From Arbacia lixula (lineage: Eukaryota; Echinodermata; Echinoidea; Arbacioida; Arbaciidae): DNA of 64,000 nucleotides. Below the pieces are notes generated by a model. The model ran no database searches. It was not told the origin of the DNA and saw only the letters and a program-made list of their open reading frames with translations. The stretch covers positions 17,546,027-17,610,026 of the forward strand of contig OZ022580.1 in the NCBI GenBank assembly GCA_963669155.1, written 5' to 3'. The position numbers and the translations under genes were made by a program. This document shows, in pieces, positions 11,102 to 57,778 of the stretch (the first letter of the stretch is position 1; the number at the start of each line of letters is the position of its first letter).

Positions 11102-11521
11102 GAGTAATATTGAATTTTAGAAATTTAGTATTAACTCAACAGGATAACTATACGATTTTGCTTCCATAAGCGCGCAAAATAATGGATCTTGAGAACCTAG
11201 TAAGGAAAATGCTCAGAAATTCCTATCTGACCCCGTTTAGGCGATCGAGCATAGGAAGAAATTAACTCCAAGGTCAACCTTTATTTTTACCTAACCCTAT
11301 CCGTCATTTGTACAGAAATGAACTGTTTTACCCGCTAAAAATATGATTTATATATATCCTTAATTATAGCTTGTGGGAAAGAACAAAATAATGTTACTGG
11401 CCTGTATGGTGTGATGACCGCGAGTGGAGGCTAACCCTAAAGCGCCCTTCCACCTCGCATAGCAACAATATCATGTTGCGTAATCATATGCAAATCAACC
11501 TTCCCCCTCAAATTAAATAAC

Positions 11522-11739
11522 AATAGACCGTCGTTTAGTAGCGTATTCACGACTTTCCCCCTTACTGGGTAACAACCTGTTATTGCATTCACCTCTATCT
11601 AGTCATTCATATTCAATGGATGGAATGCACTTTGAATCTTATTAATTGTTGCTACACGGACAAACCTCAGTTGCCATTAGCAACGAATTGTTTGAACGAC
11701 GTGAATAAAATCTGCGTACATAACAAAAAATTGTCTACT
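11522..11739 (-). mobile_element. ~215-bp MITE (AATAGACC family), left arm copy 1
   Basis: Starts AATAGACCGTCGTTTAGTA and GTATTCACGAC, and ends with the inverse (GTGAATAAAATCTGCGTAC, TAACAAAAAATTGTCTA). The centre carries GGATGGAATGCACTTTGAAT and GTTGCTACACGGACAAACCT, shared with copies at 12,151-13,088 and 14,197-14,415. The mirror in the right arm is about 56,930-57,147. Confidence 0.65.
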
Positions 11740-12150
11740 CGCTTTCTATACAATGCTAAGAGAATTTCAAATTCCACAGACTGAGCGTGTTTTAAATCCC
11801 CGTACACCATACAGCATTGAGCGCTACGTGCTACAGCGGAGATTTCAGTGCGTTGCCTCTACTATTCACCTTTTTTGCTGCAGCATCCATCATCTTTCTT
11901 TTTTTATCGTTCCCAATTCATGACGTGCTACTATTAACTGTTCCCCGTTGTCAGTTTTTAATGGTACACGTCTGAATCGGCTGCGATTTTTGAAGAGGGA
12001 GGTGTATTTTGAGCGGATTTGTTTCAGTTTGATTTGAGGCGCAATAAACCCAATCGTGTTTGACTCTGTCGGAAACACTTTCTTCCCGTCTTGGTCCTGA
12101 TTGTGGGTATGTGAGGAATCAGGAAGGGGAAAGGAGAGAGAGTTATGTAA

Positions 12151-13088
12151 TTATACCATTTTCGTTATGTATGCAATTTTTATTCACGACGTTCAAACCC
12201 AAAGCTTGTCCGAGGTTTGTCCAGGGATGTGTTAGGAAGGAGGGACAACTCAAGCATAATGTATTCAAACATCTGTGTGGATACTAAAGCGTGCTAATGA
12301 ATGTCAAAAGCATTCCACAATCACTGCAATGCTTTGAAGTCCCATGCGTGGCACCGTCATTTTGCTGCCGTCAACTTGGAAAGCAATATCTTTAATTCCC
12401 TGTTTTGTTTCTCGAAGCTGTGTTTCTTATCACATTTTTTTGTAATTTTCAAGAAAGTTAAGGGCAACACCTCTAAAGATCCTGCAATCGTTTTTCTTCT
12501 AAATAATTGTTGAATGATGAACAAACGGAGATATAAAATAATATTCTTACTTAGGTAATTACCAAATTTCTTCACTTTCCGGAGATTTCCGGAAATGTTG
12601 GATTCAATCATTATTAAAATTCTATATTAAGCTGTTTATTTTCATTAACAGAGTTTGCGTGAATTTGCGTGCAGCTGAGATATTTTACTATAAAAAAACA
12701 GTTTATTTTTGTTCGCTGATATCTCTTTTCCTCACAAAAGTATTGATGCAATCCAACAGAAGTGGACAAGCGAAATAAGACTCTACATTTCTTTTGTTCT
12801 CTCTGAGAAACCGTTGCTAGGCAATCCTGTTCGTTATTGTTAAAACATATGAAAAGCACATGCTGAGACCACATTTTTTTTCGGCGGTGCCACGCATGGG
12901 CTCAAAGAAAGAATGTTGTTTCATATCCTTTCCTAACACATCCCTGGTTTGTCCGAGTAGCAACAACTAATAAGATTCAAAAGTGCACTCCACCCATTGA
13001 ATATGAATGGGCAAGTACAAGTCAATGTAATAACGCGTTGCTACCCAGTTAGGCGGTTAGTCGTGAATACATTTCGAAAACGTCTATT
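12151..13088 (+). mobile_element. AATAGACC-family MITE, copy 2, split by another MITE
   Basis: Left end ACCATTTTCGTTATGTATGC, then the family core (AAGCTTGTCCGAGGTTTGTC). It is interrupted at 12,222-12,946 by a different element and resumes with GTTTGTCCGAGTAGCAACAA, ending GTGAATACATTTCGAAAACG and TCTATT. The right arm has the uninterrupted version around 55,910-56,085. Confidence 0.65.
12222..12946 (+). mobile_element. 7-bp-TSD MITE (CAGGGATGTG family), left arm
   Basis: Ends are CAGGGATGTGTTAGGAAGG and its inverse CCTTTCCTAACACATCCCTG. They are flanked by the direct duplication GTTTGTC at 12,215-12,221 and 12,947-12,953. The right arm retains the empty site (near 56,040), so this insertion is younger than the arm duplication. 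A near-identical copy sits at 53,947-54,672. No transposase frame. CAGGG termini recall hAT elements, but the TSD reads as 7 bp rather than 8. Confidence 0.85.
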
Positions 13089-13454
13089 CTGCATATCTGG
13101 AAGAGCAGAAAGAGAAAGAGAGAAAGTGCTGATAGGGCTGTTCAGACAAAAACATGAATTCAGACAAAGAGAATACATGTTGAAGGATTGTTTGTGTGCA
13201 TCAATAAATGATTTCAAAAGCTCTTCCTGAATTAATCATGAGGTTATGGAGAAAGAAGGCGTGTTTGAAGAGACAGAGACAGACAGACACTTTCACTTGT
13301 ACACAGGTCATATAATGCAACTGTGATTGAACGTGATCTAACACAATTTACTGTGACAACATTTATATCAGGGTTTGTTTTACTATATCTCTCACTCTCC
13401 CTATACACCCGTGTATGTCTGTCTCTATCTCGTTCCCCAGGTAACCCCCCCATT

Positions 13455-13655
13455 CTCTCTCTCACACACACACTCTCTCTTTCTCTCTCTGTCTCTCTCC
13501 CTCTCTCTCCTCTGTCTATATGACCCGACTAATAATCCCGCCCGGATGTGCTCGTCGACGACAGGCTAACTAATGGGATTACTGTTACTTTTTCATTGAC
13601 ACGAATGCGAACCGGCAGCAGTACATTCGTTGAGGTAATTAATTATTTATTTATT

Positions 13656-13707
<52 letters not shown>

Positions 13708-13760
13708 TTTTTTGTTTTTGTTTTTTTTTTGGGGGGGGGACTTGCTTCCGAATAACCATT
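13455..13760. repeat. CT-rich microsatellite, conserved module and long poly-T
   Basis: (CT)n-rich tract to about 13,512, then the module TCTATATGACCCGACTAAT ... CTAATGGGATTACTGTTA ... CCGGCAGCAGTACATTCGTT, then an uninterrupted poly-T run of about 70 bases ending in nine G. The module recurs at 17,940-18,070, 49,195-49,300 and 55,340-55,495. Open frames reading poly-Phe or Ser/Leu here are artefacts. Confidence 0.8.
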
Positions 13761-14196
13761 GAGATTAAAGGGCACGTTTACCCATGAAACATGTCAATTC
13801 TATTTAAAAAAATCATTCATGATACTTAAACATGGCTCTAAAATGGCAGATTTTAGTTGAAACAGAACCAAACAAAGCCCGTCTTACTGTCCAGTTTGAG
13901 TCGCCAAATCGTACGCCGAGAAAACTTAAGGGCGCCGCCATGTTCCGCGCTACCCTTCAAAACTGGGACGTCACATACGAACAAATATAACCTCTACGCC
14001 CATTGGCTCCATTTTGTGCTCTCTTGTGCCGTTATATTAATAAACATATAAATATAAACTAAAAATTTCTAGAATATTACAACAAAAAAATTAAAACATA
14101 TTTTTATCATTCGTTAAAAACATATTTTTAGCCTCAAAATATTGAATTATCTTTTCTTTGTAACGACAATCCAACGACACATCGACAAATCGGAAG

Positions 14197-14415
14197 AATA
14201 GACCATTTTCGTTATGTATGCAGATTTTATTCACGTCGTTCAAATAATACGTTTCCAGTGGTAACTCAAAAGCTTTGCCCGAGGTTTGTTTGAGTAGCAA
14301 CAACTAATATATTCAAAGTGCGTTCCATCCATTGGAATTGAATCACGGCATACAGGTGGAAGTAATAAACGCGTCAGTTAGAAGGATAGTTGTGAATACA
14401 TTACTGTCGAAATAA
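14197..14415 (+). mobile_element. AATAGACC-family MITE, copy 3
   Basis: Begins AATAGACCATTTTCGTTATG and GCAGATTTTATTCACGTCG, passes through AAAGCTTTGCCCGAGGTTTG and ends at TTGTGAATACATTACTGTCG. The right-arm mirror is 54,690-54,840, where another MITE (53,947-54,672) has inserted into it. Confidence 0.6.
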
Positions 14416-14799
14416 AATGTAAGCCAAATTACAAAGGTTAACTGACTGGCAATGGAAGCCACATGTGTTTCTTTTGTAATAACACCACATGTCCGAGTTA
14501 ATTCGACTGAACTTCTAAAATCCCTTATACCATATGTTTAATAATACAGGTAACTTAGGCTCTGTGACGCACTGGATGCATCGCAATTTTAATTATTTTG
14601 TCTATCTTTTTCGCAGCTAGGAGCAGTGCCTAATTTGTTACCCGCGCTTTTTCGGTTTGCCTGATTTTGCACTAAAGGTATTATGTAATAGTTGTAATAG
14701 TAAGTGACGTGAGCACATATGGGAGAACATGAGTGGTGGATTTTGTTTTGGTATGTCGGAACAAGGGTCCGAGAGTACATGAGTTTGAGGGAGTGGTGT

Positions 14800-15035
14800 G
14801 AGAAGCTATTTTGTCGTGATTGACAAAAGGCCTGTTTTGTCACCCACGGGGAGGGGTCCTGAGTGCGGGAGAGAGTCGGGAAAGTCTGGGGACTTGCTGC
14901 ATGAAAGTGAGTATATCCGCCCCAACTCTAGCTGCCACTGTTTCTGCTATCATGAGCGGGAAGTGCAGACGGCCGTCGTGTGGACACAAATTCCTCCGGG
15001 AGGCAGGCAACAGGGTCTTGAATTCTTCAAAATAA
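14800..15035 (+). pseudogene. Exon-like segment inside the foldback element (unidentified)
   Basis: GC-richer than its surroundings and open in one frame: MRSYFVVIDKRPVLSPTGR, ESGKSGDLLHESEYIRPNSS, CHCFCYHEREVQTAVVWTQ, PPGGRQQGLEFFKIT. It then meets a consensus donor (GTAAGT at 15,032). The right-arm copy (52,740-52,976, - strand) keeps the frame over most of this length but has a stop after QMAVV. I do not recognise the protein. It could be a captured exon or a chance frame in conserved repeat sequence. Confidence 0.4.
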
Positions 15036-15775
15036 CTGTAAGTCTGAAACATGCCAGTTTGCGGGGCTTTCTAAAACTGTTTAATTCCTGTATAGGCAAG
15101 TCTTTCAGATTGAAGTTTGGCTTTCTAAAAATCAGTGCTTTCAACTAACGTGAACATTTTAAATGCAAACATTTTCTGACACGAAAATTACCATTTCAAA
15201 TTGAATGATTTCTTCTAGTTCGGAAACTGAACGTATGTATTTTTCAGCAAAAACTGAAATGTGATTAACTAGTAGTCAAATGTCATAAACGCCCTCTTTT
15301 GGTAAGTAACAAAAGTCGGCCATTTTATGTCAGCCATGTTGAATTTTGAGGAAGCCTGTATTGTTGGGTAATTCTCATTGATTGGTAGCATCGTGTATTT
15401 ACGGCATATATTCATATTGGGATGAAAATGAGAACTACGTTATCGTGGCTATGATATGTTTTGATAACCAATCTTTTATGCAACATGTGCATTTTGTTAA
15501 CAAGCGGTCATAAGTAATGGTTGCTGGTTAAATTGAAGTATTGTACATAGCAGAGGTATGAATCATTTTAGCACTGGACATTGTTGTGCTGGTAAATGGC
15601 TCTTGTGCCAATTGGAGATATCGAGGAGATATCCGGTTTTCTTTTTGCGAAGTCTATTTGGTAAAGCAAATGGTGCGATTATTGTCCTTTTAAGATGTCG
15701 TGTGCTTTACAAGATATAAAGTTAAAGCGTACGATTTTGGATATATATTTATGATGCGCTGTAACTATATTTCAG

Positions 15776-16012
15776 CCGTAATCAAGGGTTCAGCCATCAC
15801 GTGCCCTTGCACCCAGACCGAGCGGTGACTGTTCGGTTTCCTGGTCTCCCTCATCGACGTCGCCGAGCATTGAGGATCGCAACTGCAACCACCTCAGCTC
15901 GGGCATCGACGTCCTACCGTGTAACCTCGATAGCGGGTCTTTTGATGAACTCGCGCTTCAAAAATCAACGTTATCGCAATTGCGTCGTCAAGGCAACCAG
16001 GTTGTATTGACG
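15776..16012 (+). pseudogene. Second exon-like segment inside the foldback element (unidentified)
   Basis: Preceded by an acceptor-like TATTTCAG. Open frame with SPSIEDRNCNHLSSGID, then SFDELALQKSTLSQLRRQGN and QVVLTLH. The right-arm copy (51,788-52,000, - strand) keeps EDRNCNHLSSGID and ALQKSTLSRSRRQGNRVVLT with an in-frame deletion between them. That length difference is a multiple of three, which is mildly suggestive of coding. The family is unidentified. Confidence 0.35.
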
Positions 16013-17129
16013 CTGCACATTAAACTGAACAATATCAACCATATCCAGGTTTTTATATCATGAACCAAAGATAATTTGATACAAACCTATAATTTAATTC
16101 ATTACTTTTAACATATATATGACTAGCACCCAGAGTCAATAGGAAAATGATTGATACTTTATCCATCCTCATTCCTATTTAAAGATTATTGTATTGGAGG
16201 CAACATTTCACTGTTCAATTCAATTGATATGTGTATGTTATTGCGTTTCATTCTAATCTGATTATTTCATGCATCGTAATAAAAGTTTCATCTTGAAACT
16301 ACATAAACATTAGTTCCGATTTTTATTCTTCGTCTACTGGAATGAGGAACCCCACAATGTTGTGACAATTACGACAATGACTTATTCTCCCGCTGATTTT
16401 CTGAGCGCTAGACTTATCAATTAAACCAGAATTATGCTTTATATCTTCATACCTTACCACGATCTAATTTGGCCAAATTACATTTCTGGGAAAACTAAAA
16501 AAAAAAAATTACATTCGCAAATGTCGGATATATCGCAAATACAAATCTCTTTTAAGTGCGCTCAGAAATATAATTTGGCCGAATTAGATCGTAGTAAGGT
16601 AGGCCTACGGAGATATAGAGCAGAAGTTTGGTCTGAATGATATAAGTCTAGCACACAGAAAGTCAGCTGAAGAATTTTTCTGATTTGCTGTTAGATTGTC
16701 GCTACAATGGAAAGATAATTCGATATTTTGAAGCTAAAAATATATGTAATGTTTTAACGAGTGACAGAAATATTCTTTAAAATACGCTATTATTTTTTTA
16801 TAATAGCAGTCTAGCGATAAATGAAATTTGGAATTTACATTCATACGTTTATTAATATTACGACATGAGAGAGTGCAGATTGCAAACAATGGGTAGAGAA
16901 GTTTAATTTGTTCGTATGTGAAGTCACAATTTTGAATGGCAGCGCGGAAAATGTAAGACGGGCTTCGTCTGGTGTTGTCTCAACCAAGAGCTATCATTTT
17001 AGAGCCATTTTAAAGTATCTTACATGAAGTTTAACATAGAATTGACATGTTTAATGGTTAAACTTTCCCTTTGAGCAAGTACCGCTTTGGAATAAATGGA
17101 TTCATATTGATTTTAACTTATTGAAACAT

Positions 17130-17335
17130 CTGTTTGGATACTAAATCGTGCTAATGAATTTTCAAAGCATTTCACAATAACTACAGTGCGTTGATGTCCT
17201 TTGCACAGCACCGACATTTAGCTGCTGTCAACTTGGAAAGCAATATCTTTAATTCCCTATTTTGTCTCTCGAAGCTGTGTTTCTTATCACATTTTTATTT
17301 TGCAATTTTCAAGAAAATTAAGGGCAACACCAAAT
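17130..17335 (+). mobile_element. Old fragment of the CAGGGATGTG MITE family
   Basis: Matches the interior of the 12,222-12,946 element (GAAACATCTGTTTGGATACT, GCTAATGAATTTTCAAAGCA, GTCAACTTGGAAAGCAATAT) but has lost clear ends. It is present in both arms, so it predates the duplication. The right-arm counterpart is itself tandemly doubled (49,975-50,800). Confidence 0.7.
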
Positions 17336-17399
17336 CAAATATCATTATTCTATGCCACCACGAGATCCGTTGAATTCCAATCGCAAATGTTTTCATATC

Positions 17400-17575
17400 A
17401 CTCCATCTACCGCAGGGTCCATGTGCTCGTCTGTCTTCCTCGTCGTCCAACGTCTTCAATGTTGTGGGAGACCTGGACAGCTTCTCCCTCTTGGAACTCT
17501 AACACCAGTCATCTCCGACAACCTGGAACTGAAAACCGACAAGAGTTTTGTACTGCAACTGTGATTACAGGTGAT
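17400..17575 (+). pseudogene. Unidentified exon-like segment (DVFN..GDLDSF), left copy 1
   Basis: After an acceptor-like CTACCGCAG the frame reads LSSSSNVFNVVGDLDSF and, after a one-base shift, a segment matching SDNLELKTD. The same segment occurs at 18,495-18,670 and, inverted, at 48,560-48,750 and 49,745-49,890. I do not recognise the family. Frame shifts between copies indicate decay. Confidence 0.4.
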
Positions 17576-17724
17576 TTATTACACCTCATTGTGACGATAT
17601 TCGTATCAGACTTGTATATAATCTTGCGCAATATAAATCGCCTGAACATATCAACCAAGCTGTGCTTTATTGTAAGTACACTCGTATAATTATGTTTCCA
17701 TGATATCATTCGAATGAAACACGG

Positions 17725-18070
17725 CTCTCTCTCTCTCTCTCTCTCTCATTCCCTTCTCTTTCTCTCTCTTTTGTCATTCTCCTTTTCTTTATCTGTCTCC
17801 CATGTCTCCCATCTCCTTTTCGTTCTTTTCCCTATCTCTCTCTCTCTTATACACCTGTCTATATCTTTCTCTATGTCTCGTTCCCCATCTTCCCTCCCCC
17901 TTCTCTCTCTCTCTCTCTCTCTCTCTCCTTCTCTCGTTCTCTCTCTCCTCTGTCTATATGACCCAATTAATATTCCCGTGCTCGTCGCTGACAGGCTTGC
18001 TAATGGGATTACTGTTGTTTTTTCATTGAATTGAATGAAAACCGGCAGCAGTACATTCGTTGTGGTCATT
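17725..18070. repeat. CT-rich microsatellite plus conserved module, second left copy
   Basis: A long (CT)n-type tract from 17,725 to 17,955, then TCTATATGACCCAATTAAT ... CTAATGGGATTACTGTTG ... CCGGCAGCAGTACATTCGTT, the same module as at 13,510-13,640. The Ser/Leu-rich frames here are artefacts. Confidence 0.8.
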
Positions 18071-18494
18071 ATTCGGCCGCCCCCAAAACGAAACCGACTG
18101 ATATCAGTTAGCCGTAGAAATGCACCTGCGGAGAGGGAGGAGGGGTTGCAAAAACGTGCTGCCGAACAGCATTTGAGATCAAGCAAGTACCGCTTTGACA
18201 TAAATGGATTCAAAGTTATTCAACTTTTGATGAGACATTGCCATGACCTGTGCACCTGTGTCACACCGAAAAACATACCTGGTCTTTCAGCTCAAATACC
18301 ATATTATGCTATATACCTGCTCTTCGTTTTAATCTCATATAAAAGGTCTACATAGTCACTTTTTCCCTTATCTCACCGGGAAATGACAGTCTATTTGTCA
18401 GGGATAATGACGCCCGGCAGTGTCAAATATCATGCTATGCCACCACGAGATCCGTTCAGTTCCAATCGCAAGTGTTTTTATATCACTCCATCTA

Positions 18495-18670
18495 CCGCAG
18501 GGTCTACGTACTCGTCTGTCGTCCTCGTCGTCCGACGTCTTCAATATGGTGGGAGACCTGGACAGCTTCTTCCTTCTGGAACTTAACACCACGGTCAACT
18601 CCGACAACCTCGAGCTGTAAATCGCCGATGACCAGCTCCAAGACGAAAGCCTCTTCGAACTCGTACGTGT
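18495..18670 (+). pseudogene. Unidentified exon-like segment (DVFN..GDLDSF), left copy 2
   Basis: Frame LSSSSSDVFNMVGDLDSF then FLLELNTTVNSDNLEL, followed by a stop. The right-arm counterpart (48,560-48,750, - strand) extends further as SDNLELKTDDDQLQ. Downstream text runs into a LINE fragment, so the segment may have been joined to retrotransposon sequence. Confidence 0.4.
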
Positions 18671-18900
18671 AACAAAAGAGGGTGCAACCTTAAGTGGTAA
18701 TATATTTACTAACGCCTTTAATGATCCTGGTTCTTCAGGAATTCTTTTGTCTGACGCCAGCGATCACCTTCTGATTTTCCAAATAACGGAGAAATCTCTT
18801 ACAAAATTCGAAAATCGATCAAGTCCAAAACATTTCGACGTAAGGTAACTCCTACCGCTATCCAATCGTTTAATGACGTCTTTGTGAACGTGGGGCACAA

Positions 18901-19343
18901 TAAGCCAGTTCGTAATTACAATTTGCGCATGAGCAGATGAAGGTCATAGTGACCAAACCAGCTTGTTGGTTTTTAAATCACTGAGATAAGCATCATCATT
19001 AATAAGTTATTTTACAATATGCTTGTTATCCAATTTATAAAAGAACACCAAGGTGTTCAATCATGGGGTATTTGACAACAGGCCAAACGACAACAATTAG
19101 TTTACAATAAACAATGTAATAGAAGCTTTCCCAATTGTTCACAGACCGTAGCCTACTATTCTTGTCACCTGTTTTGAGATGGTTCCTTTATTAGAGGTTG
19201 AATACTGCAAATTGCTATGTCGGGTAAGCACATTACGTAACATCTCCTTTTGAAATGATATATTAATCAACTGCTTATCCTCATGAAAAAGGGAAAGGTC
19301 ATAGTGACCAAACTTGCTCCAGAGCTAACTACGAACTGGTGTA
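18901..19343. mobile_element. MITE (CCAGTTCGTA ends), left arm only
   Basis: Terminal inverted repeats CCAGTTCGTA (18,905) and TACGAACTGG (19,330-19,339). The right arm reads straight through the site (GGCACAATTTGTCG on the matching strand), showing insertion after the arms formed or loss from one. Internal AAGGTCATAGTGACCAAAC repeats inversely related sequence near both ends. Confidence 0.75.
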
Positions 19344-19561
19344 TTTGTCGAACTCTTTACACCAATCAATTTACATTTCTCAGATGTTATGCCTTTAACG
19401 CTTTCAATACTTCTTTTTCTCTTAAGCATGTCCCCAAACCAGAAGTAATTTAAATTATCAAAAGTTTTCGTAATGGTAAAAGTCCCGGATATGACAACAT
19501 ATCTGTTGATATTGTAAAGCAGTGTACATTACACACTTTATTCGCAGACCTTTGGCATACA

Positions 19562-21649
19562 TATCACTCACTCACTCGCTCATCCGTCGGCTGACGAAAC
19601 TCCTATGGTAGCTTTCCAAAGTCTCCTCTCTTGCATGCAGGCTTCTATCCCTGCTGTTGTAATGCCCATATCATATAATTGATTGGTGAATGTCTTAGCG
19701 GGTCGTCCAGGTAGTCGTTCACCATGTAATGGGTTCCAGTTAATAAATCACGAACAGGTTTCTCCACCCCTCTTTTGCAGTGTCCTGAAAACTGTAGTTG
19801 CCTCTTTCTGATAGATGTTATCTTGGAAGGTTACCATAGAGCTCTTTGTTACTCATGTGGGCCTTCCAACTTACATCAAGTGCTTTTCGCAGGATTCTGG
19901 TGTAACATCCATCCAGAGACTTGCCAGTTCTGTTAGTAATGGTCCATATTTCTGAACCATACAGAAGCACACTTTCAACAGTAGCCTGGAAGAGTTGTCT
20001 CTTAATATTCCATTGTAATTTTGAGCTCCAGATGTTGTTCAGCTTATTACATGCTCTCCATGCAATAGCTTTCCGGATCTTAATGTGGTTTTCTGTGTTT
20101 TGGTCCCAGGCTTCACGATATTTAAAGTCCTGAACTTTAAGAAATGTGCCGTCTTGTGTTTGGATATGAGTCTCATGTGATTGGTTGAATACCATGAATT
20201 GAGTTTTCTTTGCAATCCAACTTTCAATGCTGCTGTTTAAACTGCGTTCAGGAGTTCCTGAGTCTGGGATGTAGTATCCGAGATAAGTTCAATATCGTCG
20301 GCAAAGTCAAAGGTTATGATAGCTGGTAAGTTCTTATCCTTAATGCCTTCTAGAATTCTTCGTAAAACTAGGATTTGTTCTGTAGTAGATCGACCTTCTC
20401 TAAAGCCGCTTTGATTTGGTTTTAATTTTGTATCTAAATGGGGTCTCAATCTGTTCAGGATCATCCTGCTGTATGTCTTTGCTACGAGAGGGCTCAAGCT
20501 AATTCCTCTCTAACTGGATGTGTTGCTTAAATCCCCCGCTTTAGGCACTGGAACCAGATTCAGTAAGGACCATTGTTTAGGTGTTCTTCTGTTGAGAAGT
20601 GCATCGTTACAGAATTTGAGTATGTCATCAATCTCGCATCTTTTGATGACTTCTGGTGGGATATCATCCTCTCCACAACTTTTGCCTTCTTTTGTAGCCC
20701 TCTTCGCCTTATATTCTTTTATGTCAAAAGCATCAGTTCGGATTGGGAGCTCACTAAGGATTTATGGGATTTCCTCATCCTTCCTCTATGACATTGGAAG
20801 GGTTCCCCAAAAGTGTTTTAAAGTGGTCATACCAGCAGCCTATCCGCTCCTCTTTTGTGCTACCTTACAATCTACCAGCTCTTGCCTTTTTCCTTCCACT
20901 AACCTCATTGATTAATTTCCAAGCCGTTTGATGTTTCTGGTTCGTATTGGCTTCTTTAAATTCCTTCAGTTTCTGCTCCAGATATTCACCGTTTGCTTTA
21001 TCATATGCCTCATCCAACTTTTCTTTACACCTTTCAAATTCAATATGGTGTTTTCCTTTACATGTATCTTGTTTACTTCATTTAATACCTACCTGGCTTT
21101 TTCCACTCTTTCATCATAGCACAGTGCCCTACGTTGCTTCTTAGGGACTTTGGGCATCATTTTCTCGGCTGCTTCTTTTTTGCCTGAATTAAGTGCCTAT
21201 AATTTACTGTCTTATCGCAGATGTCATCATCTAGGGACAGCAGGGCATATTGTTTCCGATTTCAACAGTGTATCTTTCTTGTAGATCTGTGTCCAATTTT
21301 AGCTTATTCCAGTCATCCCTTATCTTCTGAACTTTATTAGTGTTAGCTCTAAGACTAAGCCTGATTTTTGCTGTAACTATCCTGTGGTCTGATCCAATGC
21401 TACATAATGAGTTACGTGCTTCTACATCTAGGATGCTGTTTTTTTTTTCAATTTTCCTCTGATGAGAATATAATCCAGTTCTTTATGTCCGCTTGGTAGT
21501 TCACATGTCCATAATTTTGTGGACTTTTTCTGGAAGGTAGTGTTTGAAATGTAGTTCATAGTGAAGTAGTGTGGTCGTGATAAGAATATGGTGCTTTATG
21601 AAGGCCTACTCTGGAGTTGAAATCACCGATAACAGGCAAGAAGTTGTGT
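19562..21649 (-). mobile_element. LINE A: 5'-truncated APE-type non-LTR retrotransposon nested in LINE C
   Basis: On the - strand it encodes the endonuclease end (GDFNSRVG near 21,610 and SIGSDHRIVTAKIRLSLR), a linker (PKVPKKQRRALCYDERV), RT start (LKPNQSGFREGRSTTEQ, ORF 20,237-20,497), and a C-terminal part with VESVLLYGSEIW (ORF 19,818-20,195). The core of RT is missing: ITFDFADDIELISD joins two conserved motifs directly. The element is flanked by GCATACA at 19,555-19,561 and 21,650-21,656, a 7-bp target duplication lying within the LINE C frame. C-terminal wording resembles RTE-like endonuclease-RT proteins. Confidence 0.75.
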
Positions 21650-22186
21650 GCATACAAACGCAATCTGTCAATACAAACTGGTGTATTCCCCTCCAAAATA
21701 AAAATCGCCAAACGTTGTACCCATATTCACGAAAGGCCTCACTTCAGATTGTAGCAAGACCCATTATAGACCCATTTCTATCCTTCCATTTTTTCCAAGG
21801 TACTCGGGAGAGTTCTTTGATATACAATCGTATCTACAATTTCTCGGTGTTTAATACGAATTGCCCTACCGCATTTGCTCTAATCAATCTTTACGATGAA
21901 ATTATGAATTATGTATATCTGAATAAGCATTCAATATCTATTTTTATGCATATATCAAAAGCATTTGATACCCTGTCGCATACAATACTTTAAGCAAAAT
22001 TGCGTTATGACGGGATTCGGGGCATACCACATCTTTGGTTTTAAAGCTATCAAACTGACAGAAAACAAAACACTGTTTATAACTCACATACTTCTAATTT
22101 GTTGTGTACCACAGGGTTCGATTCTTGGTTCTTTATTGTTGCTAATATACATCAATAATATTTTTAAGATTCACGATTCAAGATAA

Positions 22187-28198: not shown

Positions 28199-28199
28199 A

Positions 28200-29249: not shown

Positions 29250-29294
<45 letters not shown>

Positions 29295-40214: not shown

Positions 40215-40269
40215 CTAGAACAATTAAAATTAATGATAGCATTGATACATGTATTACATCAGCACATCA

Positions 40270-42299: not shown

Positions 42300-42420
42300 G
42301 ACGACGACGACGCTGAGCTGCTCCTGACGACGAGTGACCACGACAAGGTGTCGGGTGCCTAGACCATTGACGGCCGCGTCTACGCCGCTTTACCGACAAT
42401 CGGCGGAAAAACAAGTGAAG
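42300..42420. repeat. (CGA)n-rich patch between LINE fragments
   Basis: CACGACGACGACGACGCTGA and following GC-rich text. The left-arm version (24,840-24,930) lacks the triplet expansion. No gene assigned. Confidence 0.5.
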
Positions 42421-47700: not shown

Positions 47701-48559
47701 ATATGTATGCCAAATGTCTGCGAATAAAGTGTGTAATGTACACTGCTTTACAATATTAACAGATATGTTGTCATATGTTGTCATAATTTAAATTACCTCT
47801 GGTTTGGGGACATGCTCAAGAGAAAAAGAAGTATTGAAAGCGTTAAAGGCATAACATCAGAGAAATGTAAATTGATTGGTGTAAAGAGTTCGACAAATTG
47901 TGCCCCACGGTCACAAAGACGTAATTAAACACATTAGCGATGCAGTATGGATTATGTATTTCAGTACCATTGTGAATGATTGGACCAGTTTGAGTTGAGG
48001 CATGTTTACCTAAAAGTTTATTTAGGAATTGCCAAGTCATTCTCAGATTATTTTGTAATTCATCAAACCTATCATGAAAATATAAGTGTATGGAGTTTAT
48101 TGCAATATTTTTAGTATTTAGTTTCGTTTTCCTCAGTGTATAAGAATGCATATGAAAAGCATGTTTTGATTTGTTTTGTTTTTATTGAGTTTAAAATGGC
48201 ATTATTTATCCATGGCTTTTGGACGGCGGATAGAACATACCACTTTTAAAGGCATATGCAAATCATATATAGATGAGAAACGTTTTACGAAATAATCATG
48301 CTTCATGTACGTGATTAGTTTCAAAGACATCGGACCAATCCATGTGGCTTAAATCCCGAAGAAACGATTGGATAGCCGAAGGAGTTACCTTACGTCGAAA
48401 TGTTTTGGACTTGATCGATTTTCGAATTTTCTAACAGATTTCTCTGTTATTTGGAAAATCAGAAGGTGGTCGCTGGCGTCAGATAAAAGAATTCCTGAAG
48501 AACCAGGATCATTAAAGGCGTTAGTAAATATATATATTACCACTCAAGGTTGCACCCTC

Positions 48560-48750
48560 TTTTGTCACACGGACGAGTTCGAAGAGTCTTTCGTTTGGAG
48601 CTGGTCATCGTCGGTTTTCAGCTCGAGGTTGTCGGAGGTGACCATGGTGTTGAGTTCCAGAAGGAAGAAGCTGTCCAGGTCCCCCACCATATTGAAGACG
48701 TCGGAGGACGAGGACGACAGACGAGCACGTGGACCCTGCGGTAGATGGAG
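48560..48750 (-). pseudogene. Unidentified exon-like segment (DVFN..GDLDSF), right copy 1
   Basis: After acceptor-like CTACCGCAG (- strand) the frame is LSSSSSDVFNMVGDLDSFFL, LELNTMVTSDNLELKTDDD, QLQTKDSSNSSV, stop. The best preserved of four copies. It is acidic and serine-rich, and I cannot assign a family. Confidence 0.4.
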
Positions 48751-49289
48751 TGATATGAAAACACTTGCGATTGGAACTGAACGGATCTCGTTGTGGCATA
48801 GCATGATATTTGACACTGCCGGGCGTCATTATCCCTGACAAATAGAGTGTCATTTCCCGGTGAGATAAGGGAAAAAGTGACTATATAGACCTTTTATATG
48901 AGATTGAAACGAAAAGCAGGTATATATCATAATATGGTATATGAGGTGAAGACCGGATATGTTTCTCGGTGTGACACAGGTGCTTGAGAGGGAGGGTGGG
49001 GGGAAGGGGGGAGAGAAGGTTTTAGGTCATGGCAATATCTCATCAAAAGTAAAATAACTTTGAATCTATTCATGTCAAGGCGGTACTTGCTTGATCTCAA
49101 ATGCTGTTCGACAGCAAGTTTGTGCAACCCCTCCTCCCTCTCCGCAAGTGCATTTCTACGGCTAACCGATATCAGTCGGTTTCGTTTTGGGGGCGGCCGA
49201 ATAATGACCACAACGAATGTACTGCTGCCGGTTTTCATTCATGTCAATGAAAAACTAACAGTAATCCCATTAGTAAGCCAATATTAATT

Positions 49290-49301
49290 GGGTCATAAAG
49301 A

Positions 49302-49358
<57 letters not shown>

Positions 49359-49580
49359 TAGAAAGAGAGTAGATAGAGAGAGAAGGGGGAAGGTAGATGG
49401 GGAACGAAAGATAGAGAAAGATATACACAGGTGCATAAGAGAGAGAGAGTTAGGGAGAAGAACGAAAGGGAGACGGGACACATGGGGGACAGATAAAGAA
49501 AAGGAGAATGACAAAAGAGTAAGAGAAAAAGAGAAGGGAATGAGAAAGAAAGAGAGAGAGAGAGAGAGAGAGCGAGCCGT
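49290..49580. repeat. (GA)n-rich microsatellite
   Basis: Long imperfect GA/GAA tract, mirror of the CT tract at 17,725-17,955. The Arg/Glu-rich and Ser/Leu-rich frames over it are artefacts. Confidence 0.85.
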
Positions 49581-49744
49581 GTTTCATTCGGGTGATGTCA
49601 TGGAAACATAATTATACGAGTGTACTTACAATACAGCACAGCTCGGTTGATATGTTCAGGCGATTTATATTGCGCAAGATTATATACAAATCCGATACAA
49701 ATATTGTCACAATAAAGTGTGTTACATCACGTGTAATCACAGAT

Positions 49745-49890
49745 GCATTACGTAACTCTTGTCGGTTTTCAGCTTCAGGTTATCGGAGATGACTGGTGTT
49801 AGAGTTCCAGGATGGAGAAGCTGTCCAGGTCTCCCACCAAATTGAAGACGTCGGACGACGAGGAAGACAGACGAGCACATGGACCCTGCG
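49745..49890 (-). pseudogene. Unidentified exon-like segment (DVFN..GDLDSF), right copy 2
   Basis: - strand frame LSSSSSDVFNLVGDLDSFSI, LEL, then a one-base shift into TPVISDNLKLKTDKSYV. Mirrors 17,400-17,575. Confidence 0.4.
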
Positions 49891-49974
49891 GTAGATGGAG
49901 TGATATGAAAACACTTGCGAGTGGAATTCAACGGATTTCGTGGTGGCATAGAATAATGATATTTGATTTGATGT

Positions 49975-50800
49975 TGCCCTTAATTTTCTTGCAAATTGCA
50001 AAATAAAAATGTGATAAGAAACACATGTTCGAGAGACAAAATAGGGACTTAAAGATATTGCTTTCGAAGTTGACAGCAGCTAAATGTCGGTGCTGTGCAA
50101 AGGATATCAAAGCACTGTAGAGATTGTGGAATGCTTTGAAAATTCATTAGCACGCTTTAGTATCCATACAGATGTTTCAATATGTTATGCTCGAGTTGTT
50201 TCTCCTTCCTAGCACATCTCTGGTCATATGATCTTTGAGCTGAGGGGGGGGGGGGAGGGGGGTAATGTATCGTCAAAAGTAAAATTAATATGAATCCATT
50301 TATTTCAAAGCGGTACTTGCTCAAAGGGAAAGTTTACCCATTAAACATGTCAATTCTATGTTCAACTTCTATGTTCAACTTCTTGAAAATTGAAAATAAA
50401 AATGTGATAAGAAACACAGCTTCGAGAGACAAAATAGGGAATTAAAGATATTGCTTTCGAAGTTGACAGCAGCTAAATGTCGGTGCTGTGCAAAGGACAT
50501 CAAAGCATTATAGTGATTGTGGAATGCTTTGAAAATTCATTAGCACGCTTTAGTATCCATACAGATGTTTCAATATGTTATGCTCGAGTTGTTTCTCCTT
50601 CCTAACACATCTCTGGTCATATGGTCTTTGAGCTGATTGAGGGGGGGGGGGGGGGTAATGTCTCGTCAAAAGTAAAAATTTATATGAATCCATTTATTTC
50701 AAAGCGGTACTTGCTCAAAGGGAAAGTTTACCCATTAAGCATGTCAATTCTATGTTAAACTTCATGTACGATACTTTAAAATGCCTCTATAATGATAGCT
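49975..50800. repeat. ~410-bp tandem duplication in the right arm
   Basis: Two successive copies of the same ~410 bp: each has GTGATAAGAAACACA, AGGGA(A/C)TTAAAGATATTGC, GACAGCAGCTAAATGTCGG, GCTCGAGTTGTTTCTCCTTC, a G-run (50,245 and 50,642) and AAAGCGGTACTTGCTCAAAG. The left arm has one copy (17,040-17,335). The G-run length differs between the copies. Confidence 0.85.
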
Positions 50801-51658
50801 TTTGGTTGAGACAATACCAGACGAAGCCCGTCTTACATTTTCCGCGCTGCCATTCAAAATTGTGACTTCACATACGAACAAATTAAACCTTTCTACCCAT
50901 TGTTCGCAATCTGCACTCTCTCATGCCGAACTGTTAATAAACGTATACATGTAAATTCCAAATTTCAGTTATTGCTAGACTGCTATTATAAGAAATAAAA
51001 GCGTATTTTGTAGAATATTTCTGTCACTCGTTAAAACATTACATATATTTTTAACTTCAAAATATCGAATTATCTTTCCTTTGCAACGACAATCTATAAA
51101 CAGCAAATCAGAAGAATTCTCCAGCTGATTTTCTGTGTGCTAGACTTATCATCCAGACCAAACTTCTGCTCTATATCTCCGTATGCCTACCTTACTACCA
51201 TTTAATTCGGCCAAATTATATTTCTGAGCGCACTCAAAAGAGATTTGTATTTGCGATATCTCCGAAATTTGCGAGTGTAAATGTTTTTTTTTTTTAGTTT
51301 TCTCAGAAATGTAATTTGGCCAAATTAGATCGTGGTAAGGTATAAAGATATAGAGCATAATTCTGGTTTAAATGATAAGTCTTGCGCTCAGAAAATCAGC
51401 GGGAGAATAAGTCATTGTCGTAATTGTCACAACATTGTGGGATACTTCATTCCAGTAGACGAAGAATAAAAATCGGAACTAATGCTTATGTAGATTCAAG
51501 ATGAAACTTTAATTACAATGCATGAAATAATCAGATTAAAATGAAACGCAATAACATACACATATCAATTGAATTGAACAGTGAAATGTTGCCTCCAATA
51601 CAATAATGTTTAAATATGAATGAGGATGGATAAACAATCATTGACTCTGTTTACTAGT

Positions 51659-51659
51659 C

Positions 51660-51689
<30 letters not shown>
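51659..51689. repeat. (TA)n microsatellite
   Basis: About 15 TA units in the foldback interior. The left arm has only ATATATATG at 16,111, so the tract has expanded or contracted since the arms formed. Confidence 0.85.
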
Positions 51690-51692
<3 letters not shown>

Positions 51693-53227
51693 GTAATGAA
51701 TTAGATTATAGGTTTACATCAAATTATCTTTGGTTCATGGTATCAAAACCTGGCAATGGCCAGTTTATAATGCTCAGTTCAGTGTGCAGCGTCAATACAA
51801 CCCGGTTGCCTTGACGACGCGATCGCGATAACGTTGATTTTTGAAGCGCGAATTCATCGATGCCCGAGCTGAGGTGGTTGCAGTTGCGATCCTCGATGCT
51901 CGGCGACGTCGATGAGGGAGACCAGGAAACCGAACAGTCACCGCCCGGTCTGGGTGCAAGGGCACGTGATGGCTGACCCCTTGATTACGACTGAAATATA
52001 GTTACAGCGCATCATAAATATATATCCAACCCAAGTATAACTTGTACGCTTTAACTTTATATCTTGTAAAGCACACGACATCTTAAGAGGACAATAATCA
52101 CACCATTTGGTTTACCAAATAGACTTCGCAAAAAGAAAACCACCGGATATCTCCTCGATATCTTCAATTGGCACAAGAGCCATTTACTAGCATAATAATG
52201 TCCAGTGCGAGAATGATTCATACCTCTGCTATGTACAATACTTCCATTTAACCAGCAGCCATTACTTATGAACGACCACTTGTTAACAAAATGCATAAGT
52301 TGCACAAAACATTGATCAAAACATATCAAAGCCACGCTAAAGTAGTTCTTATTTTCATTCCAATATAAATATATGCCGTAATTACACGGTGCTACCAATC
52401 GATGACAATTACCCAACAATATAGGCTTCCTTAAAAGTCAACATGGCTGACATAAAATTTTTGTTACTTGCCAAAAGAGGGCGTTTATGACATTTGACTA
52501 CTCATTAAACATATTTCAGTTTTTGCTGAAAAATACATACGTTCAGTTTCCAAACTAGAAGAAATCATTCAATTTGAAATGGTAATTTTCGTGTAAGAAA
52601 ATGTTTGCATTTATTATGTTCACTTTAGCTGAAAGCACTGATTTTTAGAAAACCAAACTTCAATCTGAAAGACTTGCCTATACAGAAATCAAGCAGTTTT
52701 AGAAAACCCCCGCAAACTGGCATGTTTTAGACTTACAGTTATTTTGAAGAATTGAAGACCCTGTTGCCTTCCTCCCGGAGGATTTTGTGTTCACACGACA
52801 GCCATCTGCACTTCCCGCTCATGACAGCAGAAACAGTGGCAGCTAGAGTTGGGGCGGATACACTCACTCTCATGCAGCAAGTCCCCAGACTTTCCCGACT
52901 CTCTCCCGCACACAGGACTCCTCCCCGTGGGTGACAAAACAGGTCTTTTGTCAATCACGACAAAATAGCTTCTCACACCACTCCCTCAAACTCATACTCT
53001 CGGACCCTTGTTCCATCATACCAAAACAAAATGAACCACTCATGTTCTCCCATATGTGCTCACGTCACTTACTATTACATAATACCCTTAGTGCAAAATC
53101 AGGCAAACCAAAAAAGCGCTGGTAACAAATTAGGCACGGCTCCTAGCTGCGAAAATGATACTGATAGACAAAAGAATAACAAGTGCAATGCATCCAGTGC
53201 GCCACAGAGCCTAGGTTACATGTATTA

Positions 53228-53755
53228 TTAAAAACAGCCCTCCCTTTTTTAGATCACCACAAAACCATCGAAACATTGCAAAAAACATATAGAGAAGTGT
53301 TAGCAAGCTGTACATTCATAATTTGAAACTGATACGTAGTGTAAAATTCAAATAATGCACTTTATCAACGTCTGATTAATAGTCTTTACCTCAGGCTTTT
53401 AGCAGTTTGTGTTGAAATATCTGCTTTATAAGTTAATCGTTATCAAATTATAAAACGCATTATGAACAAAAATTGTTCTATAGAAGGAACCATCTCCAAA
53501 GTTTGTTAATTACATATAAAATTAGGATTTCACACATGCATAATAACCACATAGATACTGTAACAAAGACTAATACTGTTTTCGTAGTACGAAAAAAAGT
53601 CGGTTTGAAATTTAACGGCTAAAATTTTTTACATACACAGAAAGCCTCAACATACTATATTCTAAGAAATGGTCTTGAATCACACTTTCTTGAATTTACG
53701 ATCGTGATAGACGGTTTCAAATTTTAAGCTTGCAAAAGGGACGGACAATCTTTAA
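53228..53755 (-). mobile_element. TTAA MITE, right arm only
   Basis: TTAA at 53,228-53,231 and 53,752-53,755. The left arm has a single TTAA at the empty site (ATGTTTAATAATACAGG near 14,535). Near-identical in layout to 62,869-63,370: subterminal TCCGTCCCTTTTGCAAGCTT, TCGTAGTACGAAAAAAAGTC palindrome, ATGCATAATAACCACATAGA. Likely moved by a TTAA-specific transposase. No coding. Confidence 0.85.
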
Positions 53756-53946
53756 GCAAATGGTATAAGGGCTTTTAGAAGATAAGTTGAATTAACTTGG
53801 CCATGTGGTGTTTAAAGCTATGACAAAAGAAACACATTACTGAGCAACGTGGCTTCCATTGCCAGTCAGTTAACCTTTGTAATTTGGCTTATATTTTATT
53901 TTGACCGTAATGTATTCACGACTAACTGACGGTTTATTACTTCCAC

Positions 53947-54672
53947 CAGGGATGTGTTAGGAAGGAGGGACAACTCAACCATAATATATTCAAACATCTG
54001 TATGGATACTAAAGCGTGCTAATGAATGTCAAAAGCATTCCACAATCACTGCAATGCTTTGAAGTCCCATGCGCAGCACCGTCATTTTGCTATCGTCAAC
54101 TTGGAAAGCAGTATCTTTAATTGCCTGTTTTGTTTCTCGAAGCTGTGTTTCTTATCACATTTTTTTGTAATTTTCAAGAAAGTTAAGGGGCAACACCTCT
54201 AAAGATCCTGTATTCGTTTTTCTTCTAAATAATTGTTGAATGATGCACAAACGGAGATATAAGATAATATTCTTACTTACATAATCAACAAATTTCTTCA
54301 CTTTCCGGAGATTTCCGGAAATGTCGGATTCAATCATTATCAAAATCATATATTAAGCTGCTTATTTTCATTAACAGAGTTTGCGTGAATTTGCGTGCAA
54401 ATGAGATATTTTACTTTAAAAAACTGTTTATTTTTGTTCGCTGATATCTCTTTTCCTCACAAAAGTATTGATGCAATCCAACAGAAGTGGACAAGCGAAA
54501 TAAGACTCTACATTTCTTTTGTTCTCTCTGAGAAACCGTTGCTAGGCAATCGTGTTCGTTATTGTTAAAACACGTGAAAAGCACATGCTGAGACCACGCA
54601 AATTTTTCGGCGGTGCCACGCATGGGCTCAAAGAAAGAATGTTGTTTCATATCCTTTCCTAACACATCCCTG
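53947..54672 (+). mobile_element. 7-bp-TSD MITE (CAGGGATGTG family), right arm only
   Basis: Ends CAGGGATGTGTTAGGAAGG and CCTTTCCTAACACATCCCTG, flanked by CTTCCAC at 53,940-53,946 and 54,673-54,679. The left arm retains the empty site (ATACAGGTGGAAGTAAT near 14,350). Very close in sequence and length to 12,222-12,946 but at a different site, so the family was active after the arms arose. Confidence 0.88.
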
Positions 54673-55289
54673 CTTCCACCTGTATTTCGTGATAATGGAT
54701 GGAATGCACTTTGAATCTGTTAGTTGTTGCTACTCGGACAAACCTCGGACAAGCTTTTGGGTTACCATTGGTAACGTATTATTTGAACGACGTGAATAAA
54801 ATATGCATACATAACGAAATGGTCTATTCTTCCGATTTGTCGATTTGTCGTTAGATTGTTACAAAAAAACGATAATTCAATATTTTGAGACTAAAAGAAA
54901 ATATGTTTTTAGCAAATGATAAAAATATGTTGTTTTTTTTTTCTTGTAATAATCTCTAAATTTTTAATTTATATTTATATGTTTATCAATACTACGGCAC
55001 AAGAGAGTACAGAATGGAACCAATAGGCGTAGAGGTTATATTTGTTCGTATGTGACGTCACAGTTTTGAATGGCAGCGCGGAACATGGCGGGGCCCGTAA
55101 GTTTTCTTGGCGTACGCTTTGGCGACTGGAACTGGAAAGTAAGACGGGCTTCGTCTGGTTTTGTTTCAACCAAAATCTGCCATTTTAGAGCCATGTTTAA
55201 GTATCATGAATGAATTTTTAAATAGAATTGACATGTTTCATGGGTAAACTTGCTGTTTCATCTCAATGGCTATTCGACAGCAAGTTTTC

Positions 55290-55560
55290 CCCCTCCCCCC
55301 ACCCCCCCCCCCCCCCCACCCCCCAAATATCCGTCGGTTTCGTTTTGGGGGAGCCCGACTAATTACCTCAACGAATGTGCTGCTGCCGGTTCTCATTCGT
55401 GTCAATGAAAAAGTAACAGTAATCCCATTAGCCAGCCTGTCAGCGACGAGCACATCCGGAAGGGAATATTAATCGGGTCATATAGACAGAGGAGAGAGAG
55501 ACAGAGAGACAGAGAGAGAGATAGAGAGAGAGAAGGGGGGGGGGGTAGCTGGGAAACGAG
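55290..55560. repeat. Poly-C tract, conserved module and GA-rich microsatellite
   Basis: C-rich run at 55,290-55,324, then the inverse of the module at 13,510-13,640 (AACGAATGTGCTGCTGCCGG, CAGTAATCCCATTAG) and a GA-rich run at 55,488-55,545. The left arm has poly-T plus G9 in place of the C-rich run. Confidence 0.8.
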
Positions 55561-56209
55561 ATAGAGACAGACATGCACAGATGTATAGGGAGAGTGAGAG
55601 AGATAGGAAAAAATGATATAAATATTGTCACAGTAAAATTGTGTTAGATCACGTTTAATCACAGTTGCATTACATGACTTGTGTACAAGTGAAAGTGTCT
55701 GTCTGTCTCTGTCTCTGTAAACACGCCTTCTTTCTCCCTAACCTCATGATTAATTCAGGGGATCTTGAAATCATTTATTAATGCACACAAACAATCCTTC
55801 AACATGTATTCTCTTTGTCTGAATTCATGTTTTTGTGTCTGAACAACGGCCCTATCAGCACTTTCTCTCTTCCTCTTTCTGTTCTTCCAGATACGCAGAA
55901 TAGACTTTTCGAAATTTATTCACGACTAACCGCCTAACTGGGTAGCAACGCGTTATTACAATGAATTGTACTTGGCCATTCGTATTCAATGGGTGGAGTG
56001 CACTTTTGAATCTTATTAGTTGTTGCTACTCGGACAAACCTCGGACAAGCTTTGGGGGTTGAAAGAAAATGGTATAATTACATAACTCTCCCTTTCCCCC
56101 TTCCTGAGTCCTCACATACCCACGGCTATTTCACCTCTCCTTTTTCTTCTGGGGCATCGTCCTTTTAACTCTCGTTTGTTCATTGTAGTTCCCCCTCTCT
56201 CTTTCGACA

Positions 56210-56465
56210 TACATCTCCAAACGCACGCACACACACTCACTCATACATGTCGGTCGTCTCCCCCCCACCCCCCCCCCCCCCCATCCTGTCACACGCACAC
56301 ACATACACACACACACACAGATACACATCCCTTTTGGGCGCTCTCTCTCTCTCTCTTTCTCTCTTCTGGCTTTATTTCTTCTTCTTTTTCTTTATTTTCT
56401 TTCTCACATTCAATCCTAAACTCTTCCAGATCGACCACAACCCCCCCCCCCCCCCTCCGCACTCA
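56210..56465. repeat. Composite (AC)n, poly-C, (CT)n region
   Basis: CA repeats, two C runs (56,262 and 56,443) and CT repeats lying between the matching arm sequences at 56,125 and 56,660. The left arm lacks most of this. The open frames are artefacts. Confidence 0.85.
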
Positions 56466-56929
56466 CACATACGCCGAGCTATACACACATCCCAATCACT
56501 GCAGTGCATAGTGATACGAACTTGTGATATAGAATGTAAAAGATAGCTATCATGTTACAACTTAAAAAGAAGGCAAATTCTCACAATTTTTTCTAAGCAT
56601 GCTTACCATGTGCCCATAGAGAGTGGCCGTACCCTTGTAGTACAAATCGTACACAATCAAGACCAAAACTGGAAGAAAGTGTTTCCGACGGAGTCAAACA
56701 AGAATTTATTGCGCCTCAAATCGAACTGAAACAAATCCGCTCAAAATACACCTCCCTCTTCAAAAATCGCAGCCGATTCAGACGTGTTCCGCGCAATACG
56801 AAAAGTAGACGCAACGCACTGAAATCTCCGCTGTAGCACGTAGCGCTCAATGCTGTATGATGTACGGGGATTTCAAACACGCACAGTCTGTGGAATGTGA
56901 AATTCTCTTAGCATTGTATAGAAAGCGAA

Positions 56930-57147
56930 TAGACCATTTTTGTTATGTACTCAGATTTCATTCACGGCGTTCAAACAAGTCGTTACTAATGGCAACTGAG
57001 ATTTGTCCGTATAGCAACAATTAAAAAGATTTTTGTAAAGTGCATTCCATCCATTGAATATGAATGACTGGATAGAGGTGAATACAATAACACGTTGTTA
57101 CCCAGTAAGGGGGAAAGTCGTGAATACATTACGAAACGGTCTATTGT
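56930..57147 (+). mobile_element. AATAGACC-family MITE, cleanest copy
   Basis: AATAGACCATTTTTGTTATG at one end and CATTACGAAACGGTCTATT at the other, i.e. inverted ends of about 20 bp, with TTCACGGCGTTCAAACAAG and GTCGTGAATA inside them. Mirrors 11,522-11,739. Confidence 0.7.
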
Positions 57148-57778
57148 TATTTCATTTCAGGGGGAATGTTGATTTGCATATGATTACGCAACGCGTTATT
57201 GTTGCTATGCTAGGTGGAAGGGCGCTTTAGGGTTAGCCTAGGGTTAGCGGTCATCACACCATACAGGCCAGTAACATATTTTGTTCTTTCCCACGAGCCT
57301 TCTATAATTACGGATATTTATAAACCCATATTTTTAGCGGGTAAAACAGTTCATTTCTGTACAAATGACGGATAGCGTTAGGTAAAAATATAGGTTGACC
57401 TTGGAGTTAATTTCTTCCTTTGCTCGATCGCCTCAACGGGGTCAGATAGGAATTTCTCAGCATTTTCCTTACTAGGTTCTCAAGGTCCATTATTTTGCGC
57501 GCTTATGTAACCAAAATCGTATAGTTATCCAGTTGAGTGATAACTCAATTTCTGAAATTCAATATTACTTAATATTCATGAGCAGCAGCTGCTCTCAACC
57601 ACATAAACAATATGATGCATGCGCGATTGCGTCACGTTCACCTGGATTTCATAATAGGACATACGCATTCCTATGCATGCGTACATATCAGCGTTCGCTG
57701 CTGAACTTTTAATTTTGTCACTAAGTGTTTGTTATGTAGTTAAAAAGGACGAGCGAATACGAAATTTGATACTTGTTG

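Follow-up and report, generated by a model that had tools for sequence, protein, structure and literature searches.

A worn 46-kb mirror image in the Arbacia lixula genome is probably one of several giant palindromes of a dispersed repeat

Large palindromes, fold-back duplications and segmental copying are already known, and giant palindromes have usually been studied singly, on sex chromosomes or as disease rearrangements. Mammalian sex-chromosome palindromes, as the available parts of two reports describe them (PMC6790999, PMC8981503), are large inverted repeats around a small spacer that often carry genes and are kept more than 99% identical by gene conversion. In the available text of a study of 21 human fold-back junctions (PMC3907307), spacers range from 766 to 70,466 bp, with microhomology of 2–8 bp at 13 junctions, repeat homology at 3 and insertions at 5. 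Inverted colinear blocks on one scaffold have also been described in invertebrate assemblies, those of Adineta vaga and Folsomia candida (PMC5916493, PMC7953838), where, according to the accessible sections, they are homologous gene blocks and are partly doubted as assembly errors. The literature searched, which lacks most subscription papers, yielded no published family in which one repeat forms dispersed giant palindromes. Here, we analyzed a 64,000-bp stretch of the sea urchin Arbacia lixula (the window; contig C5, positions 17,546,027–17,610,026, in a genome of 607 Mb and 590 contigs). It contains a palindrome that is probably one of several giant palindromes of the same repeat, and not an assembly slip.

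The original prediction, made from the letters of the window, had reported the same order of landmarks from 11,102 to 32,013 as from 57,569 to 32,696 on the other strand. Self-BLAST of the window confirmed this: a colinear opposite-strand chain pairs 11,103–32,024 (+) with 57,569–32,685 (−). Read by eye, homology stops at about 32,014 and 32,697 at the apex and at 11,103 and 57,569 at the outer ends, agreeing with the predicted positions to about one base and giving arms of ~20.9 kb (A) and ~24.9 kb (B) separated by 682 bp. The 22 blocks of the chain align 16,789 sites, 6.26% of which carry substitutions (550 transitions and 501 transversions; Kimura two-parameter distance, K80, 0.065). Since the longest direct-strand self-match in the same self-BLAST is 731 bp, the inverted chain lies far beyond chance and is a worn mirror image over 46 kb. 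The parts of the palindrome and of its apex are as follows.

11103..32014, + strand: arm A, a copy of the repeat block, with its outer end on the left and its inner end on the right
32006..32079, + strand: sequence resembling isoleucine transfer RNA (tRNA-Ile(GAT)), straddling the boundary between arm A and the spacer
32015..32696, + strand: single-copy spacer, contiguous with arm A, holding the rest of the tRNA-like unit, the island and a partial second island
32121..32470, + strand: conserved island with a tRNA-like start followed by a T-run, scoring 22.3 bits against the Rfam tRNA family (cut-off 29)
32557..32690, + strand: partial second copy of the island start, in the same orientation and adjoining arm B
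32697..57569, − strand: arm B, an inverted copy of the same block, with its inner end truncated relative to arm A

Alignment of the arms along their length, as the original prediction had proposed, revealed nearly even divergence. K80 lies between 0.05 and 0.08 in 17 of the 22 blocks, the others having values of 0 (a 25-site block), 0.046, 0.083, 0.099 and 0.129, and there is no trend from the apex to the outer end (Spearman −0.24, p 0.18). The longest substitution-free run covers 123 aligned sites, as expected from shuffled data (mean 114), and no recent conversion tract between A and B is visible. The variance of differences per sub-window slightly exceeds the Poisson expectation (1.3 at 100 sites, 2.2 at 1000). 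At this divergence and with so short a clean run, the arms depart from the identity above 99% of sex-chromosome palindromes (PMC6790999, PMC8981503, as far as their available text goes), which they resemble in size and small spacer. The substitutions, together with the private insertions described below, bear out the earlier view of an old structure that differs by both. The accompanying statement that the arms are not gene-converted holds for recent homogenization in the window but does not extend to the whole family, since arm ends or inner arms of other palindromes pair by locus.

Each arm proved to be a copy of a repeat dispersed over the genome, not duplicated unique DNA. A 1-kb piece of arm A gave 41 matches at 86–100% identity, 40 of 339 candidates having been scored. 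Relatives colinear with the arm were found at C5:14.05 Mb (C5b), at C8:28.10 Mb and, without 16.4–24.7 kb, at C3:2.73 Mb, and others, accompanied by exons of a phosphatase gene, at C5:17.47–17.48 Mb and on C27. The copy at C5:17.48 Mb is cut off by an assembly gap of 200 bp, beyond which lies a short piece in inverse orientation. A 40-mer of the inner end has 307 exact matches in the genome (149 forward, 158 reverse; control 0); 100 of these island places, covering part of the genome, were listed. On C1–C7, 14 of 15 arm pieces are followed by a same-strand island no more than 40 kb downstream, the exception being arm B, and the spacing is 6.6–9.1 kb in 10 of the 14. With C5:17485683 added, where the copy ends at the assembly gap and has no island, the count is 14 of 16. 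Arm piece and island are thus parts of a single dispersed block, which in most copies is shorter than that of the window. Separately, four copies of an island subtype lie in one orientation, 65–71 kb apart, at C14:8318219–8521746, likely a tandem array of a large unit.

Further palindromes of this repeat were present elsewhere. C8, C3 and C5:14.05 Mb, the best matches outside the phosphatase family, were chosen regardless of palindromy, and two of the three (C8 and C3) are palindromes. On C8 the palindrome is full length (arms 28102496–28122996 and 28148897–28126258), and on C3 the facing arms meet near 2734.66 kb without a spacer, with a 3-bp overlap by eye. At C13:8.85 Mb and C1:32.71 Mb, of which just 3.5 and 5.2 kb were read, the facing arm ends are 98.4% identical over 567 bp and 97.8% identical over 810 bp, respectively. 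All five palindromes, including that of the window, have the repeat oriented with the same end at the apex. The spacer is contiguous with one arm in the window and on C8, C13 and C1. It measures 0.68 kb in the window and 2.1, 3.3 and 3.6 kb on C13, C8 and C1, respectively, with a later long interspersed nuclear element (LINE) insertion in the C8 and C1 spacers. Junctions of the spacer with the inverted arm are masked by later insertions except on C3 and in the window. The short single-copy spacer recalls human fold-back inverted duplications, and the overlap on C3 and the filler bases in the window, both read by eye, may do so as well, but the cases in the available text of that study (PMC3907307) are large patient rearrangements, mostly with terminal deletions, whereas the arms here are interstitial, ~20 kb long and found at several places.

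The centres of the C1 and C8 palindromes are colinear, and their spacers differ by 3.6% over 3,162 sites. They share one centre, so at least one palindrome was copied in its entirety from one chromosome to another; segmental duplication would give the same result as movement of a palindromic element. A shared centre was likewise considered for C13 and C8 and rejected: the left sides are alike and the right junctions lie tens of bases apart. Arm ends differ by 0.9% (C1) and 1.4% (C8) within a locus and by 2.4–3.5% between the two loci. The contrast weakens outside the island, where the corresponding values are 1.7% for C1L–C1R, 2.6% for C8L–C8R and 2.7–4.9% between loci, and C8L–C8R reaches 5.1% over the inner third. 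In the arm-end tree, the C1 and C13 pairs each have support of 100 and C8L+C8R has 87. These values hint at exchange between arms after the C1/C8 palindrome had been copied.

We then compared the arms across loci, measuring divergence on arm A coordinates. A–B divergence is 6.3%, as is A–C5b; A–C8 is 6.4–6.8% and A–C3 7.8–8.5%. Within palindromes, C8L–C8R is 3.7% (3.6% with the full right arm) and C3L–C3R 7.7%. The idea that arm B was simply copied from A was rejected, A being equally close to arms at unrelated loci. In the whole-arm tree, arms pair by locus with full support. Three pairings have support of 100 in the inner third (26.0–31.8 kb): A and its close relatives with B, C8L with C8R, and C3L with C3R. 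In the middle third, A and B pair at 96 and C3 is not resolved; the C8 arms are sisters in all three thirds. The phosphatase-associated copies differ from arm A by 3.3% (both A–C27 and A–C5:17.48 Mb). The sequence across the C27 apex (C27:1–863) is 4.7% from B (666 sites) and 6.1% from A (818 sites); being closer to B than to A, with A–C27 at 3.3%, it suggests that the palindrome formed before the phosphatase region was duplicated.

The island at the apex (32121–32470) is the sole strongly conserved part of arm A. Among 277 windows of 150 bases along the arm, its first window shows 6 differences against 64 expected, and the lowest observed/expected ratio away from it is 0.47. Genome-wide, the 40 full-length matches scored of 712 candidates are 98–100% identical. 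Among known RNAs only the weak tRNA match, below the Rfam cut-off, was found, and the predicted fold is not exceptional (z −1.8). The island may be an RNA gene under selection or a short interspersed nuclear element kept alike by conversion. Arm B shares just about the first 9 bases of the adjacent tRNA-Ile(GAT)-like sequence. Beyond the island, copies on C5, C8 and C13 carry AATAAA and a motif resembling a primer-binding site, and in the centres on C8, C13 and C1 we recognized by eye what we take to be gag, zinc-knuckle and protease remnants; Pfam gave no gag or protease match in C13 or in the plus-strand frames of the C8 centre. Judged from its motifs, the inner end of the repeat thus appears retroelement-like, and its order would be the tRNA-like unit, an island resembling RNA polymerase III (Pol III) genes, polyadenylation and primer-binding-like motifs and, in some copies, putative gag/protease remnants. 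An insertion private to B, together with the C3 junction, had first pointed to a long-terminal-repeat start at 31,794; this was rejected, as C8L, C3L and A are continuous there.

We consider it somewhat more probable than any other origin, at slightly better than even, that the palindrome is an old inverted duplication started at this retroelement-like end, later copied with the phosphatase gene and then eroded. A break or stalled fork at the inner end of the ~20-kb block would have begun the process. A fold-back or template switch would then have copied the block inversely, leaving a short single-copy spacer that continues from arm A. A later duplication would have carried the palindrome together with the neighbouring phosphatase gene, and the arms would afterwards have diverged by ~6% while gaining private insertions and deletions.

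Several observations weigh against this origin. At the window, the junction of spacer and arm B has about 6 filler bases and no clear microhomology by eye, and junction points are not the same between loci. In the outer third of the tree, A groups with C5b (93) and B falls outside; the trees cover four independent loci of hundreds, which leaves room for copies closer to A or to B. Arm B ranks 26th among the scored matches to the 1-kb piece of A, 24 other places scoring higher. C5b is a single arm with no palindrome within the 30 kb read, and C13 and C1 were picked because their islands face each other. Facing islands within 5 kb are rare, with one pair among the first 100 of the 307 places and one tight facing pair in a 15-copy island subtype, in a count that overlooks any palindrome with no island left in its second arm, such as those of the window and C3. 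Finally, the 2.6% between the C8 arms outside the island is barely under the 2.7% of C1L–C8L. Given the trees that differ by thirds, exchange between copies, or two insertions, may have been part of the history.

Two insertions would in fact constitute the strongest competitor, possible but clearly less probable than a fold-back start: two copies of the repeat would have inserted independently, side by side and in opposite orientations, and would later have been partly homogenized near the apex. The equality of A–B divergence with that between unrelated loci, the separation of A from B in the outer third, and the abundance of copies, many of them scoring above B, are consistent with this account. 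The grouping of A with B in the inner and middle thirds (100 and 96) argues against it, as does the recurrence of head-to-head pairs, always with that end innermost, at four further loci, two of which were chosen for their facing islands. In addition, the 14 closest-neighbour island pairs among the first 100 copies comprise 7 facing, 7 tandem and 0 back to back; four lie within 40 kb (3 facing, 1 tandem) and the others 77–186 kb apart.

More doubtful is that the palindrome represents the normal form of a giant mobile element, with inverted arms of 10–20 kb, a small gag/protease centre and a Pol III-transcribed island. Such an element would be copied in palindromic form, exchange would keep its arm ends similar, and its dead copies would leave single arms as halves. 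Foldback or long terminal-inverted-repeat transposons are dispersed and symmetrical, with one end always inward, like the repeat here. We know of none with arms near the length of those in the window, and no transposase for such an element was detected in the frames scanned. No target-site duplication flanks the palindrome ends at 11,103 and 57,569, although other copies have more outer sequence than A.

A one-off local inverted duplication of ordinary intergenic DNA, with no tie to other palindromes, is unlikely. It would accommodate the nearly even divergence, the lack of conversion tracts and a spacer contiguous with arm A, but the repeat that makes up the arms is dispersed, and its other palindromes have the same end at their apex.

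The flanks of the palindrome bear on whether it could have arisen during assembly, the original prediction having suggested that such a structure might reflect haplotypes joined head to head. They contain the following features.

2137..6645, + strand: exons of a receptor-type tyrosine phosphatase gene in the left flank (last exon 6,496–6,645)
58698..62428, + strand: right-flank sequence in common with the right flank of the C8 palindrome (83–88%), interrupted by a tandem repeat at ~60.3–60.9 kb

Two misjoined haplotypes would be expected to show homology running into both flanks, and none was detected between 1–11,102 and 57,570–64,000 by blastn or tblastx. The best tblastn match of four of the left-flank phosphatase exons to the right flank has an E-value of 0.28, and the sequence at 58698–62428 was not found on the arm A side. 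The window has no N, the apex included; the spacer has no inverted self-homology beyond 10–12 bases; and the apex junction recurs at C27:158232–159137 with 96% identity, C27 being possibly a further duplicate or the other haplotype. Under a standard coalescent with recombination equal to mutation, two alleles gave a variance of 4–9 times the mean, and of the ratios tried just 10 and 30 came near the data, so two alleles would fit the low observed variance only with recombination at ~10 times mutation or more, a test that leaves room for hybrid or asexual haplotypes. Two divergent haplotypes would indeed produce colinear arms that differ by substitutions and many indels and, in the available text of PMC5916493 and PMC7953838, the A. 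vaga assembly palindromes have no counterpart in A. ricciae and errors of scaffolding can yield palindromes, but with unrelated flanks, a dispersed repeat and a recurring junction here, a head-to-head join of haplotypes is very unlikely. A foldback artefact of a read or library was rejected, as it would give near-identical arms, not arms 6.3% apart.

An imperfect palindrome in an assembly is not necessarily a misjoin. Several palindromes of the same repeat at differing stages of decay, some sharing a centre and others not, would show formation at a preferred point, copying, arm exchange and erosion, and the island at the apex lets one ask whether a Pol III-like gene, or its possible fork barrier, starts inverted duplication.

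Regarding the surroundings of the palindrome, the phosphatase region (1–10863) occurs again ~75 kb upstream on C5 (17.47 Mb) and on C27, each time beside the same arm. In the right flank, 61608–62392 matches part of a high-copy repeat that is tandem in places (40 scored of 2914 first-look candidates), with neighbouring matches on C7, C12, C32 and C35.

Within the arms we found no indication of function; they contain a dead gene fragment and transposon debris. The mirroring of landmarks claimed in the original prediction applies to the DUF829 remnant, the LINE pieces and the CT tracts, but the foldback elements are mostly private to one arm: the pair at 16,384–16,675 and 51,116–51,408 is mirrored, and those at 12,222, 27,175, 43,352 and 53,947 occur in one arm alone. 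In 19 of the 21 gaps between blocks, one arm has at least 89 bases; some gaps are clear insertions facing an empty site, and others are probably deletions. The contents of the arms include the following.

12222..12946, no strand assigned: 725-bp insertion resembling a miniature inverted-repeat transposable element, with ends CAGGG...CCCTG, private to A, with a 7–8 bp target duplication
20345..20548, − strand: reverse-transcriptase (LINE) fragment, inside A 20208–20793, which is missing from B
25866..26021, + strand: DUF829 (TMEM53-like) exon remnant, 19.6 bits (family cut-off 25)
27175..27855, no strand assigned: foldback insertion between TTAA sites, private to A and not in B
27945..28073, + strand: another piece assigned by eye to the DUF829 remnant, exon-like, with an open frame in A and a TAG in B
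35510..37083, − strand: segment with a LINE fragment, private to B, with a zf-RVT domain at ~36264–36437
43352..44078, no strand assigned: relative of the 12222 element family, 24–25% diverged, private to B, with a 7-bp target duplication
53947..54672, no strand assigned: insertion of the same family as the 12222 element, private to B, with target duplication CTTCCACC

The elements at 12222 and 53947 each face an empty site in the other arm, in B and A, respectively, as do those at 27175 (in B) and 43352 (in A). The CAGGG...CCCTG element is presumably hAT-like, and the foldback at 27175 presumably piggyBac-like. The absence of 586 bp of LINE from arm B is probably a deletion. The DUF829 remnant has its counterpart in arm B at ~40064–40219 (−), and the two in-frame TGA codons are common to both arms, so the remnant was dead before the arms separated. 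Arm B at 38977–39591 holds what we take, by eye, to be a Tc1/mariner-like transposase fragment, and arm A may keep a further exon of the DUF829 remnant at the matching site. Arm B also contains a tandem duplication of ~400 bp at 49986–50782, whose copies are 5.6% apart, near the arm-to-arm divergence.

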